Source: Granulicella sp. 5B5 (GTDB taxonomy: Bacteria; Acidobacteriota; Terriglobia; Terriglobales; Acidobacteriaceae). From it: a stretch of DNA of 64,000 nucleotides. Under the pieces are notes generated by a model. That model did no database searches, was not told the origin of the DNA, and worked only from the letters and a program-made list of their open reading frames with translations. Both the position numbers and the translations under genes were made by a program. Positions 6,420 to 14,297 of the stretch are shown here, in pieces (within the stretch, counting starts at the first letter, position 1; every line of letters begins with the position of its first letter). Location: the NCBI RefSeq assembly GCF_014083945.1, contig NZ_CP046444.1:3472001-3536000 (forward strand), read 5' to 3'.

Positions 6420-7646
6420 TTAGTGTGACGGCAGGTGGGCGTTGAACTGCTTGATGACGATGTCGTTCGGCTGGCTGCCGGCGGGGAGCAGGGTGAAGAG
6501 GGTAGGGCCGTTCTTGTCCTGCATGCGGATGACGGAGACGTCGGCGGAGCCGGCGTCGGTGACCAGCAGCAGGTGCTCGTCGGTGGAGAAGGCGAGGGCG
6601 TCCGGGCGGGCGCCGGTGTGGACGCTGGCCTCGGCGCGGCCGTCGTCGATGGAGTACATGGTGGCAGACTCGGAGCCGAAGTCGGAGACCCAGAGGCTGG
6701 AGTTGTCGCGGCTGATGACGGCGCTGGCGGGCTTGTTGCCGACGATGTAGGTGCCGAGGACCTCGTTGGTCCAGGTGGAGATCTCGGAGATGCTGTCGGA
6801 GTCGAAGTTGGTGGAGAAGACCTCGCCACCGTCCGGCTTTACGACGAGATGCGTGGGGGTCTTGCCGACGTCGAGCAGGGTGAGCAGCTGGTCGTGCTGC
6901 AGGGAGGCGTCCTGCTTGCCGCGCCAGGAGTCGGGGTCGGCGGCGAGCCAGACGGCCATGACGCTGTGGCCGCCGGAGCAGGTGACGAAGGCCTTGGAGG
7001 AGTCTGGGATGATGGCGACGTCGGTGGCGCCGGGACAGCCGGAGAAGGCGTCGCGGAAGGTGAGCGGGTGCGCGTCGTCCTTCGGGTTGATGGAGTAGAC
7101 GGAGAGGCTGCCGGCGATACGGTTGCTGACGACGAGGGAGCGGTTGTCCGGCGCGACGCGGACGACTCCGGGGGCCTCGCCGGTGGCGGCGACGCCGATC
7201 TCGCGGCGCTGGTCGAGGTCGATGACGGAGACTGTGTTGGAGCCGGAGTTGGCGACGTAGGCGCGTTTGCCGTCGGGCGCGACGGCGATGGAGTAGGGCG
7301 TGCGATGGACGCCGATGGTGTGGACGACGGTGTTGGTCTCGGCGTCGATGACGGTGATGGAGTCGGAGCCGGCGTTGGCGACGTAGACCTCGTTGCGGAC
7401 GGGGTTGACGGCCATGCCGCTGGGGTCGCGGCCGACCTGCAGCACGCGGTCGCGGCGCAGGTAGACGAGGTCGAGCACGGTGACGGTGTTGTTCGCGCCA
7501 TCGGAGACGTAGGCGAACTCATGATAGCTGGCCGGGTAGACAGGGAAGCGGTAGCGGTTGCAGCCGCCGAGGAGAATAGGTAGCGCCAGTGCTGCGAGCG
7601 CGAGGAGTCGGGGCCGTTCGAGAAGAGGTTGGGGAAGTGAAAGCAC
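6420..7646 (-). CDS. YVTN/YncE-type beta-propeller lipoprotein
   Basis: 408 aa. The N-terminus is a lipoprotein signal with lipobox LGGC (Cys29). The remainder is repeated beta-propeller blades with the signatures VYVANAGSDSITVID, AYVANSGSNTVSVIDL and related copies about 40-45 residues apart, the YVTN family hallmark. Such proteins are surface or periplasmic binding scaffolds; the ligand is unknown. The opposite strand stays open for about 380 codons because of the strong codon bias, but that frame has no recognisable domain. The start is close to several alternative in-frame codons; this one preserves the signal peptide. Confidence 0.85.
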   Translation of the reverse strand: MLSLPQPLLERPRLLALAALALPILLGGCNRYRFPVYPASYHEFAYVSDGANNTVTVLDLVYLRRDRVLQVGRDPSGMAVNPVRNEVYVANAGSDSITVIDAETNTVVHTIGVHRTPYSIAVAPDGKRAYVANSGSNTVSVIDLDQRREIGVAATGEAPGVVRVAPDNRSLVVSNRIAGSLSVYSINPKDDAHPLTFRDAFSGCPGATDVAIIPDSSKAFVTCSGGHSVMAVWLAADPDSWRGKQDASLQHDQLLTLLDVGKTPTHLVVKPDGGEVFSTNFDSDSISEISTWTNEVLGTYIVGNKPASAVISRDNSSLWVSDFGSESATMYSIDDGRAEASVHTGARPDALAFSTDEHLLLVTDAGSADVSVIRMQDKNGPTLFTLLPAGSQPNDIVIKQFNAHLPSH

Positions 7647-11128: not shown

Positions 11129-11234
11129 ATTTCATGCAGAGTGGTTGAGGGACGAGCCCTGTGACGCCACGACAACCGGACAGAACACAGTACCGGTGTC
11201 AACTCTCTCCTGGATGTTGCAGGGTACATGAGAT
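11129..11234 (+). ncRNA. SAM-I riboswitch (S-box leader)
   Basis: Every core helix of the SAM-I aptamer is visible. P1 pairs ATTTCATG (11129-11136) with CATGAGAT (11227-11234). P2 is built on GTGG/CCAC and GGGAC-GAGCCC. The kink-turn and pseudoknot region reads GTGACGCCACGACAACC. P3 pairs ACCGG (11175-11179) with CCGGT (11193-11197), then GTGTCAACTC. P4 pairs CCTG (11209-11212) with CAGG (11220-11223). SAM-I aptamers turn off methionine and SAM genes when SAM is high. It leads a threonine-synthase-like gene and a sulfur carrier. Confidence 0.9.
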
Positions 11235-11281
11235 TCAGTGGAAGCAGCGCTATACCTCAGGCCGCACCCACGTGACTCTCC

Positions 11282-11346
11282 GTACTCCGAACCCCCAGAC
11301 AAAGAGATAAACGTCACCCGCGCAGGACCCCTTGGCCATCGGAGTG
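11282..11346 (+). promoter_or_regulatory. Putative riboswitch expression platform hiding the Shine-Dalgarno
   Basis: ACTCCGA (11284-11290) is complementary to TCGGAGT (11339-11345), which includes the GGAG before the ATG at 11352. A competing pairing exists between GTAC-AT-GAG on the P1 3' side (11224-11232) and CTC-TCC-GTAC (11276-11285). This suggests translational control: SAM keeps P1 formed, leaving the downstream strand free to cover the ribosome site. No U-run terminator is seen. The model is inferred. Confidence 0.45.
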
Positions 11347-11351
11347 GAACG

Positions 11352-12704
11352 ATGGAAGTGTCCGGTACGGTGTCTCCCTGTCAGACGAAGTATGAGCTGC
11401 GCTGCAACGAGTGCGGCAAGAGCTTTGGCAACCGCCCGCTTTCGGCGTGCGATGACTGTCTGGCGCCGCTCGAGGTTCACTATGACCTGGAGAGCGTGCG
11501 CGGACGGTTTACGCGCGAGACCGTCGCCGCGGGCCCTGCGAACATCTGGCGCTACAAGGCGCTGCTGCCCATCCCTGAAGGCTATGAGCCGGACCTGCCG
11601 GTGGGCTTTACGCCGCTGGTGCGCGCGAAGAACCTGGGCAAGCGCATCGGTGCAACAAACCTGTATGTGAAGAACGATTCGGTGTGCTTCCCGACGCTGA
11701 GCTTCAAGGACCGTGTGGTGTCCGTGGCGCTGGCGAATGCGCAGGCGTTTGGGTTTACGACGGTCGGCTGCTCTTCGACGGGCAACCTGGCGAACTCGGT
11801 GGCAGCGCAGGCGGCGCGGCTGGGCATCAAGGCGACGATCCTGGTGCCGGCTGATCTTGAGGCGGCGAAGATCCTGAACACGCAGGTGTATGGCGCGCGG
11901 CTGGTGCGCATCGACGGCAACTACGACCACGTGAACCGGCTGTGTACGCAGATTGCTGACGAGTACAACTGGGGCTTTGTGAATGTGAATCTGCGGCCGT
12001 ACTACGCGGAAGGGTCAAAGACTGTTGGCTACGAGATTGCGGAGCAGCTTGGCTGGAAACTGCCAGACAATGTGGTGTGCCCGATGGCCGGCGGCTCACT
12101 GATTCGGAAGATCCGCAAGGCGTTCAAGGAGCTGATCGAGCTCGGCCTGGTTGAGCCGAAGGAGGTGCGCTTCTTTGGTGCGCAGGCTACGGGCTGCTCG
12201 CCGATCTCGCAAGCGGTGAAGAACGGTTGGGACTACATTGAGCCGCAGCGGCCGAACACGATCGCGCGTTCGCTCGCCATCGGCAACCCTGCTGACGGGC
12301 CTGCCGCCGCGAAGATGATTCGCGAGACGGGCGGTTGGGCCGAGGATGTTTCGGATGTCGAGATCGTTGCGGGCATCCAGGAACTGGCTGAGACTGAGGG
12401 CATTTTTACCGAGACTGCTGGCGGTGTAACGACTGCGGTGACCGCGCGGCTGTATGCGCATGGCCGTATCTCGCAGGATGAGACGACCGTGGTGTGCATC
12501 ACCGGCAATGGTCTGAAGACCACCGATGCGCTCGAAGGCCGCTTTGCTGCCGAGCCCGCGGTGAAGCCGAAGCTCGCGGCGTTTGATGAGTATCTGCGTT
12601 CGGTGGACAGCTCGCTGGTGAGCGCCAACGCAACAGAAGAAGGCGAGCTGGTGAGCTTCGATGCAGAAGGCGTCGAGCTTACGCTCGTGGGAGGAGTGCA
12701 GTAG
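11352..12704 (+). CDS. thrC: Threonine-synthase-family PLP enzyme (ThrC, or MetM-type O-phosphohomoserine sulfhydrylase)
   Basis: 450 aa from an ATG preceded by GGAGTGGA. Fold-type II PLP enzyme: an N-terminal zinc-ribbon-like segment (Cys18, Cys21, Cys33, Cys36), the PLP lysine Lys119 in TLSFKDRV, and the phosphate-binding loop SSTGNLANSVAA. By homology it converts O-phosphohomoserine to threonine. However, it is preceded by a SAM-I riboswitch and followed with 1-nt overlap by a CysO-like sulfur carrier. That context better fits the MetM reaction, O-phosphohomoserine plus carrier thiocarboxylate giving homocysteine. Family membership is certain; which reaction it performs is inference. Confidence 0.88.
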   Translation: MEVSGTVSPCQTKYELRCNECGKSFGNRPLSACDDCLAPLEVHYDLESVRGRFTRETVAAGPANIWRYKALLPIPEGYEPDLPVGFTPLVRAKNLGKRIGATNLYVKNDSVCFPTLSFKDRVVSVALANAQAFGFTTVGCSSTGNLANSVAAQAARLGIKATILVPADLEAAKILNTQVYGARLVRIDGNYDHVNRLCTQIADEYNWGFVNVNLRPYYAEGSKTVGYEIAEQLGWKLPDNVVCPMAGGSLIRKIRKAFKELIELGLVEPKEVRFFGAQATGCSPISQAVKNGWDYIEPQRPNTIARSLAIGNPADGPAAAKMIRETGGWAEDVSDVEIVAGIQELAETEGIFTETAGGVTTAVTARLYAHGRISQDETTVVCITGNGLKTTDALEGRFAAEPAVKPKLAAFDEYLRSVDSSLVSANATEEGELVSFDAEGVELTLVGGVQ

Positions 12705-12997
12705 TGTCCGTGAAAGTTGTTTTACCCACCGCATTGGCGCGTCATACCGATGGCCAGAAGATCTTTGCATCGGAAGCCACAAACCTGCCGGGGTTGCTGG
12801 CTGAGGTCGATACGAAGTTTCCTGCACTCTCGCAGAACATCAAGGATGAACAGGGCAAGCTGCGCCGCTTCATCAATGTCTACATCAACGATGAGGACAT
12901 CCGCTTTCTCGGCGGCGATGCGCATCAGTTTGAAGATGGTGACGAGGTCATGCTGATCCCGTCTATCGCCGGCGGGTGCTTCGCGGACGGCGATTAG
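12704..12997 (+). CDS. CysO/MoaD-ThiS-like sulfur carrier protein (possible MetO)
   Basis: 97 aa ubiquitin-like sulfur carrier starting with a GTG that overlaps the upstream TAG by one base. It resembles mycobacterial CysO closely through RRFINVYINDEDIRFLGG and DGDEVMLIPSIAGG. Such proteins are adenylated and thiocarboxylated on a terminal Gly-Gly. Here the diglycine (90-91) is followed by CFADGD, so a protease would have to trim six residues first, or the carrier works differently. It is co-translated with the threonine-synthase-like enzyme, its likely client. ThiS of thiamine synthesis is less likely: it is shorter and no thi genes adjoin. Confidence 0.82.
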   Translation: MSVKVVLPTALARHTDGQKIFASEATNLPGLLAEVDTKFPALSQNIKDEQGKLRRFINVYINDEDIRFLGGDAHQFEDGDEVMLIPSIAGGCFADGD

Positions 12998-13097: not shown

Positions 13098-14297
13098 TCA
13101 ATAACGAATGTTTGCGATGCGACGAGCTGCCTCTGCCAACTCTTCGTCCTTCTTCGCAAAACAGAAACGCAGCAGGTCTTCGCCGCGGTTTACGCCGCTG
13201 GCATCGCTGCCGAAGAATGCGGAACCAGCCACTGCCGCAACGCCGGTGTCCTGCAATAACCGGCGCGCGCGTTCGCGACCATTGTTGCCGGGAATGTTCT
13301 TCGTCTGCGCCAGCACATAGTAGGCACCGGCCGGCACGGATGGCTGCAGGCCTGCGGTGCGCAGAGCGTTACACAGCACGTCGCGCTTGCGCTGATGATC
13401 GGCGGCCACGCCGGTGTAGAAGCTCTCCGGCAGCGCCAGCAGGCCCGCTGCCGCGCCGTGCTGCAGCGGCGACGGCGCACACACGTAGACCAGGTCGTGG
13501 AAGTAACTGATCGCCGGCATCCAGCGCTCGCTGGCTGCCAGGTAGCCGAGCCGCCAGCCTGTGACGGAGAAGGTCTTCGAGAAGCCGGAGATGGTGATGG
13601 TGCGCTCGGCCATGCCGGGCAACGTGGCGAGGCTATGATGCGTGACGCCGTCGTAGACGAAGTACTCGTACATCTCGTCGGTGATGACGAAGAGATCGTG
13701 CTCGATCGCGATCTCCGCAAGCGCTGTGAGTTCAGTGAGCGTGAAGACCTTGCCGGAAGGGTTCGACGGCGAGTTGAGGATGATGGCGCGCGTTCGTGGT
13801 GTGATCGCTGCGCGCAGCCGCTCCGGGTCGAAGGTCCAATCCGGTGCGTCGAGTGGCACGATCACGGGCGTTACACGCTGCGAGCGCAACGTGCTGGCGT
13901 GGTAGCCGTAGAACGGCTCGAACATGATGCACTCGTCGCCGGCATTGAGCAGCGCCATCACCGTGGCCTGCATCGCGCCTGTGGCGCCGCTGGTGACGAG
14001 GACCTGCGTTTCAGGGTTGACCTGCAGGCGGTTGAAGCTTGCCAGCTTCTGCGCGATGCCCTCGCGCAGTATCTCGATGCCTTCGGCACGGGTGTAGATG
14101 TTGTGCCCGGCGTGCATCGCTGCGACCGCCGCTTCAACCACTGCGTGGGGTGGGTCGGTGTCGCATACGCCTTGCGCGAGGTTAATGCCGTTGACAGCGG
14201 AGCAGGCCACGCTCATGGCGCGAATCTCGGATTGCACCTGGTTTGGCGCAAGGTCACTTAGGCGAAGATTGTTCTCGGCGGCGATGGAGATCGGCAT
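13098..14297 (-). CDS. PLP-dependent aminotransferase, class I/II
   Basis: 399 aa, fold-type I aminotransferase. The PLP lysine is Lys241 in SGFSKTFSVTGWRLGY; the cofactor-binding NSPSNPSGKVFT and DEMYEYFVYDG segments are present. Closest in feel to the aspartate/methionine aminotransferase subgroup (substrate not determinable). It lies tail-to-tail with the riboswitch-controlled thrC-carrier pair, which is suggestive of methionine or 2-oxo acid metabolism but is not evidence of co-regulation. Confidence 0.85.
   Translation of the reverse strand: MPISIAAENNLRLSDLAPNQVQSEIRAMSVACSAVNGINLAQGVCDTDPPHAVVEAAVAAMHAGHNIYTRAEGIEILREGIAQKLASFNRLQVNPETQVLVTSGATGAMQATVMALLNAGDECIMFEPFYGYHASTLRSQRVTPVIVPLDAPDWTFDPERLRAAITPRTRAIILNSPSNPSGKVFTLTELTALAEIAIEHDLFVITDEMYEYFVYDGVTHHSLATLPGMAERTITISGFSKTFSVTGWRLGYLAASERWMPAISYFHDLVYVCAPSPLQHGAAAGLLALPESFYTGVAADHQRKRDVLCNALRTAGLQPSVPAGAYYVLAQTKNIPGNNGRERARRLLQDTGVAAVAGSAFFGSDASGVNRGEDLLRFCFAKKDEELAEAARRIANIRY

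Follow-up and report, generated by a model that had tools for sequence, protein, structure and literature searches.

In Wolinella, the HcyS/HcyD/MetY system makes homocysteine with sulfur delivered on a carrier, and JAMM processing is involved. In Streptomyces albulus, the MetM/MetO system consists of a threonine synthase (ThrC) homologue and a sulfur carrier with an upstream S-adenosylmethionine (SAM) riboswitch (Hasebe et al. 2024 as cited in PMC12172450; papers given by PMC number are represented here by the parts of them that were available). The same source describes the SAM riboswitch as absent in Microcystis. An operon type of Wolinella with ThiS/MoaD, JAB, E1 and O-acetylhomoserine sulfhydrylase genes is listed in PMC1779556, as are, in 2006, clusters of CysM, JAB, carrier and E1 genes, one of them acidobacterial. 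Here we analysed a window of 64,000 nucleotides (C1:3472001-3536000) from the genome of Granulicella sp. 5B5, which is one contig of 3,928,701 bases (3.93 Mb), and in it a two-gene unit in which a predicted SAM-I riboswitch precedes a ThrC-family enzyme and a small sulfur carrier. We consider it likely that the pair acts as a homocysteine synthase of the MetM/MetO type, with O-phosphohomoserine as substrate. A sequence-only reading of the locus had proposed homocysteine synthesis from O-phosphohomoserine, and the genomic evidence argues for this prediction: the genome has a second ThrC and no MetX-grade or MetA match, and the unit is linked at 20/20 loci. The route type is already known from Streptomyces, and the acidobacterial case adds lineage-specific twists. 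Among the top-ranked titles and abstracts of an open-access literature search, none dealt with this pair in Acidobacteriota, most of the subscription literature being outside that search; a Granulicella proteome paper mentions ThrC in passing in its available part (PMC7315648).

A riboswitch-linked enzyme and carrier

As listed in Table 1, the predicted aptamer scores well above the RF00162 gathering score of 44.4, and a whole-genome search returned it as the sole RF00162 match. The SAM-I aptamer ahead of a ThrC-family enzyme, as proposed from the letters, was thus recovered. So was the one-base overlap of the two genes: the enzyme stop TAG (12702-12704) and the carrier start GTG have exactly base 12704 in common, and the carrier stop lies at 12995-12997. 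The ThrC-family frame is open from GTG 11238, and the start at ATG 11352 is favoured by conservation and a GGAG ribosome site. The CysO-like type assigned to the carrier by the sequence-only reading held, with a ThiS match and a match to a chain of 3dwg (E 2.7e-20), which we take to be mycobacterial CysO; the six-residue tail past the diglycine had gone unmentioned in that description.

The arrangement is conserved among relatives. Orthologues of the enzyme (identity 59-92%, E at most 7e-151) were present in 20 of 21 genomes, the Granulicella sp. 5B5 genome included, and the exception was a 67% complete draft. At each of the 20 loci the carrier lies just downstream of the enzyme and a SAM-I match above the gathering score is present (two by about one bit), so that switch, enzyme and carrier occur together at 20/20. 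In a wider scan with two peptide patterns, in which the named loci are the best 80 among the matches listed, SAM-I was found in 13 of the 17 acidobacterial loci scanned among those matches; one of the four loci without it sits near a contig start.

Related units occur outside the phylum. The actinomycete Nonomuraea gerenzanensis has the same layout of switch, enzyme (55% identical) and carrier, the last with an exact GG end, and this order matches that of S. albulus MetM/MetO as given in the available part of PMC12172450. One Desulfuromonadales bin (L153) has a 92-bit switch (1631-1743) at the head of a run that encodes ThiS, CysM-like and E1 proteins, the enzyme, half of a sulfite reductase, TusA and, at 6627-7142, a carrier of MetO type to which a NIL domain (51 bits) is fused at the C-terminus. 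In Methanosarcina and Desulfovibrio, too, a protein of homocysteine synthesis contains a NIL domain (PMC5764234, available part). A stand-alone NIL protein was observed in a Nitrospirae bin (L166 7689-7931) near E1, MetM, sulfite-reductase and TusA-type genes.

The leader after the aptamer was inspected for signs of control. It contains a possible anti-ribosome-site, ACTCCGA (11284-11290) against TCGGAGT (11339-11345). A conserved hairpin of this kind in the genus was not supported: the 7-base match occurs in this leader alone, a CTCCG version in two others, and other short matches or none in the remaining nine. The stability of the leader fold was not beyond that of shuffles (z -1.5), and no intrinsic terminator followed the aptamer in any of the 12 own-genus leaders, this one included. 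In the f2 family, six of eight leaders carry an intrinsic terminator after the aptamer, which fits a putative off switch. A riboswitch model of our own (R1) was built and set aside because its information content was low.

Table 1. Features of the enzyme and carrier unit and loci of two related groups
Feature	Position or loci	Strand	Evidence or genomes
SAM-I (S-box) riboswitch aptamer, predicted	11129..11234	+	RF00162, 70.5 bits, E 1.8e-14 in window
Leader, aptamer to start codon	11235..11351	+	117 bases
MetM-like ThrC-family pyridoxal 5'-phosphate (PLP) enzyme, 450 amino acids	11352..12704	+	PALP 236 bits (Pfam)
MetO-like ThiS/CysO-type sulfur carrier, 97 amino acids	12704..12997	+	ThiS 44.6 bits (Pfam)
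Carrier C-terminal tail CFADGD, past diglycine	12977..12994	+	tails of 1-17 residues at 20/20 loci
f19 loci	L112-L115, L061, L065, L075, L079		genomes G039, G148, G173, G189
Nine switch-headed clade B genes	L223, L224, L226, L231, L232, L235, L237, L239, L241		

Convergent with the pair, a class I/II aminotransferase gene lies at 13098-14297 of the window (minus strand); a methionine-salvage role is possible for it.

Enzyme motifs, phylogeny and the threonine branch

Pfam detected only PALP on the enzyme, which is outside the Cys_Met_Meta_PP family (HcyS/MetY type) and falls in the ThrC branch, not in the CysK/CysM (cysteine-synthase) branch. At 11982-12023, NVNLRPYYAEGSKT stands in place of the ThrC motif NSVNPYRLEGQKT: relative to the canonical NSVNPxRxEGQKT, found in the genome's own ThrC (L006) and in the solved 1uim and 2zsj, the S, N and R are exchanged for N213, R215 and Y218. 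Further exchanges turn STGNT into STGNL and GSFKDRGM into LSFKDRVV. N213, R215, Y218, L146 and others distinguish the enzyme from the seven ThrC sequences of the tree set. In ThrC, contacts to the substrate phosphate are made by the serine and the arginine of the motif, and K119, the lysine of SFKDR (11706-11708), is taken from family knowledge to be the PLP lysine. The altered active-site motif was rejected as proof of homocysteine synthesis: the sister clade described below has the same motif. Two CxxC pairs (C18, C21, C33, C36; window 11403-11459) at the enzyme N-terminus likely form a zinc ribbon; they are invariant in 14 aligned acidobacterial sequences, but in the alignment with the Microcystis homologue the set is incomplete.

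A quick FastTree tree was built from 169 homologous loci and nine outgroup proteins, some species perhaps being present twice, from two collections. Clade A (141 tips, support 0.98) holds the window enzyme and sequences from Terriglobia, cyanobacteria, Nitrospinae, Neomarinimicrobiota, the actinomycete and others; the Nonomuraea and Microcystis novacekii homologues, the latter 56% identical to the window enzyme, fall in one clade with it. Clade B has 28 tips (support 0.98). An adjacent carrier was found in 133 of the 141 members of clade A vs one of the 28 in clade B, with carrier misses possible since the profile was built from Terriglobia and some contigs end beside the gene. In clade B, the neighbours of 19 genes include hom, thrB or thrC, and no switch directly precedes these genes. 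For the other nine (Table 1) the pattern is reversed, with the switch immediately ahead of the gene and none of these neighbours; an adjacent carrier accompanies L226 only, and at L235, L239 and L241 (family f62) an aspartokinase-like gene is next downstream. Five clade B loci (L215, L217, L220, L230, L238) lie near a canonical-ThrC-like gene and thrB, with no adjacent carrier, and their products may also be O-phosphohomoserine users.

The genome of Granulicella sp. 5B5 contains eight PALP-family matches, read by eye as two threonine dehydratase-like, one TrpB-like, one CysM-like, the window enzyme and three further ThrC-family genes; NCBIfam backs the CysM-like gene, the three ThrC-family genes and the window enzyme. 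The search for a second thrC that the sequence-only reading had suggested was therefore successful. One of the three (match C1:214405-215418) is canonical: it retains NSVNPYRLEGQKT, and thrB (homoserine kinase, C1:216738-217541, 238 bits, over cut-off) is about 1.1 kb away. Threonine therefore need not depend on the window enzyme, which is probably not the only threonine synthase of the cell. A homoserine dehydrogenase is present as well (Homoserine_dh, 199 bits, L029 13534-14811).

Homocysteine routes and their rivals

The canonical pathway, the completeness of which the sequence-only reading had left to a check, is incomplete in this genome but includes a metB/metC-like pair, which is weighed below. 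No MetA match and no MetX-grade match were found in the genome, the best MetX score being 107.6 bits. The relative behind it was rejected as MetX: it reaches 108 bits where the cut-off is 500, scores 505 bits with PRK06489, another alpha/beta-hydrolase family, and has an apparent signal peptide by eye. True-looking MetX (362-374 bits) was present in five of the 21 genomes, this one being included in the sample, and all five belong to the own genus. Directly before MetX stands a Cys_Met_Meta_PP gene, MetY-like by eye, in the three cases read (Pfam for one).

A phylum sample of 297 genomes was then surveyed with thresholds of E 1e-90 or better for the enzyme, 1e-70 or better for MetX and 1e-20 or better for MetA, and with RF00162 under stricter filters that miss weak matches. 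Enzyme-threshold matches occurred in 70 genomes, MetX in 71, MetA in 24 and RF00162 in 113. Taking every enzyme match as MetM was rejected: 28 of the 70 fall in clade B, and 19 of these 28 have hom, thrB or thrC as neighbours. The carrier-linked clade is present in 42 of the 297, so that the route may be common in Acidobacteriota, and MetX was found in 4/42 of these genomes vs 67/255 of the others (p 0.018). The 31 own-family genomes of the sample include 24 with the enzyme, 23 of which have the switch directly upstream of it, with one match per genome (places compared); none was found in the seven enzyme-free genomes. MetX accompanied the enzyme in one of the 24 vs five of the seven enzyme-free genomes (Fisher p 7e-4, the genomes not being independent), and MetA was found in none of the 31. 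At these thresholds, two own-family drafts rated 99-100% complete (G132, G230) yielded no match for MetM, MetX, MetA or SAM-I. Genomes without MetX and MetA look methionine-incomplete; the likely missing step here would bear a threonine synthase label.

Several observations weigh against homocysteine synthesis by the pair. TIGR00260 (thrC) scores the enzyme at 284.4 bits with a cut-off of 167.1, and automatic annotation would thus likely read "threonine synthase". The altered motifs also occur in clade B, where 19 of 28 genes have hom, thrB or thrC as neighbours and all but one of the 28 lack an adjacent carrier. The Microcystis ThrC, called a MetM homologue by its authors, is reported as a threonine synthase and deaminase, with no methionine rise, in the available part of PMC12172450. 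The SAM-I switch is not general to the enzyme family: among the matches listed, it was found at two of the 16 other named loci, mostly non-acidobacterial (the actinomycete and the Desulfuromonadales bin), and at none of six cyanobacterial loci scanned. A clean exclusion between MetM and MetX in the own genus was rejected, as four of the 21 genomes carry both, and the MetX contrast in the own family is weaker when counted by genus (1/7 enzyme-bearing vs 3/4 enzyme-free genera). In addition, the tandem metB/metC-like pair (C1:823030-825347) could give homocysteine by another route.

The first three of these points would fit an enzyme that chiefly, or in addition, makes threonine from O-phosphohomoserine, with the carrier serving a side activity and the SAM switch balancing the aspartate family. 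ThrC models do score it above cut-off, much of the sister clade keeps company with threonine genes, and the Microcystis aeruginosa enzyme of PMC12172450 is presumably orthologous to that of M. novacekii. However, the canonical ThrC near thrB, the adjacent carrier kept through clade A and the SAM-I switch at all 20 loci speak against this, and we regard a threonine synthase as quite unlikely.

The main rival is the metB/metC-like pair, because an O-phosphohomoserine-accepting cystathionine gamma-synthase would complete a plant-like route; homocysteine would then come chiefly from O-phosphohomoserine and cysteine, and MetM/MetO would be an auxiliary or low-SAM route. Both genes are present. The second scores 475.5 bits to the cystathionine beta-lyase model TIGR01329, short of its cut-off of 487.5, and its best solved-chain match is the cystathionine beta-lyase 1ibj, presumably the Arabidopsis protein. 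Plants are described as using O-phosphohomoserine in the available part of PMC13257386. However, the pair has no SAM-I match, and the first gene is below every cystathionine gamma-synthase cut-off shown, with cystathionine gamma-lyases as its best structure matches, which equally fits reverse transsulfuration or methionine breakdown. We give this explanation a small chance, higher than that of a threonine synthase.

Carrier trimming, the proposed route and known systems

The carrier ends in ...PSIAGG-CFADGD. Since it is not GG-ending and bears a 6-residue tail, it should need trimming, and the tail is predicted to be removed before thiocarboxylation. A candidate trimmer is the only Prok-JAB (JAMM-family) match of the genome (C1:1229224-1229556, gene C1:1229164-1229679). 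The cluster around this gene also encodes a CysM-like enzyme and another carrier (G000 C1:1229748-1230044), which is likewise tailed (...SIAGG-ADCLCCCL), and an E1-rhodanese gene lies 1.3 kb further on, past an opposite-strand gene (C1:1231329-1232645). Elsewhere in the genome (C1:3206867-3207589), a MoaD-like domain (ThiS, 46 bits) is fused to MoaE (127 bits) after ...VSGGADP.

The resemblance of the window carrier to CysO would also suit a different product from the carrier thiocarboxylate, such as cysteine from O-phosphoserine. A separate CysM/JAMM/CysO-type cluster is present in the genome, the window enzyme is of the ThrC and not the CysK/CysM branch, and SAM control fits methionine; this explanation is therefore considered very unlikely.

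Carrier tails of 1-17 residues past the diglycine were found at 20/20 orthologous loci. Of 80 genomes selected by handle, 76 had JAB, 75 of them over the family cut-off, and the four without it are the four genomes of the acidobacterial family f19. There, one SAM-I switch is followed by a ThiF-type E1, a cysteine-desulfurase-like class-V aminotransferase, the enzyme and a GG-ending carrier (Pfam was run on one E1 and one aminotransferase); being untailed, these carriers need no trimming. Among 55 genomes with a scored carrier, JAB accompanied 42/42 tailed and 9/13 untailed carriers (Fisher p 0.002). A statistical law was rejected, and the contrast counts as one event because all four misses are in one family. 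With one lineage behind the contrast, the co-occurrence fits a putative carrier precursor opened by JAMM. It makes directly testable whether a bacterial sulfur carrier is kept as a tailed precursor and opened by one JAMM protease.

From the observed genes, their order, conservation and co-occurrence, we infer the reactions, substrates, SAM binding and switch sign of the following route. Homoserine dehydrogenase and ThrB would supply O-phosphohomoserine. The JAMM protease would trim MetO to ...GG, and the E1-rhodanese would convert this end into a thiocarboxylate. MetM would bind O-phosphohomoserine, expel phosphate and accept the sulfur that the carrier brings, yielding homocysteine, perhaps first as a carrier adduct hydrolysed by JAMM; in the CysO system the adduct is hydrolysed by a JAMM protease. 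Homocysteine would be released and then methylated, and plentiful SAM would turn the two-gene unit off through its leader. The CysM/CysO-type cysteine system and methionine synthesis would thus draw on one sulfur relay.

A more extended proposal is that SAM-switched MetM/MetO is the main assimilatory homocysteine route in Acidobacteriaceae, that its carrier is first produced as a precursor kept inactive by its tail, and that one JAMM and one E1-rhodanese serve cysteine and homocysteine, with f19 performing the same chemistry without a detectable JAMM gene from one SAM-switched E1/cysteine desulfurase/MetM/MetO unit. We hold this combination as tentative, somewhat short of an even chance. If it is true, product release in f19, which lacks a detectable JAMM-family gene, must be JAMM-independent.

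Compared with S. albulus MetM/MetO as described in the available literature, the locus has the same elements, a ThrC-family enzyme, a carrier and a SAM riboswitch, and the same conversion of O-phosphohomoserine to homocysteine is proposed. However, the carrier here bears a six-residue tail, whereas that of the actinomycete homologue in Nonomuraea has an exact GG end, S. albulus being known by description only. In the Wolinella HcyS/HcyD/MetY system the enzyme is MetY of the Cys_Met_Meta_PP family, whereas here it is a ThrC homologue. Like mycobacterial CysM/CysO/Mec, the Granulicella system combines a PLP enzyme with a CysO-like carrier, and a JAMM-family protein and an E1 are encoded in the genome; CysM, however, belongs to the cysteine-synthase branch and uses O-phosphoserine (PMC12910592, available part), and the genome has such a cluster elsewhere. 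With canonical ThrC, the enzyme shares the fold family and probably the substrate, but it differs by NVNLRPYYAEGSKT for NSVNPYRLEGQKT, by STGNL and by LSFKDRVV.

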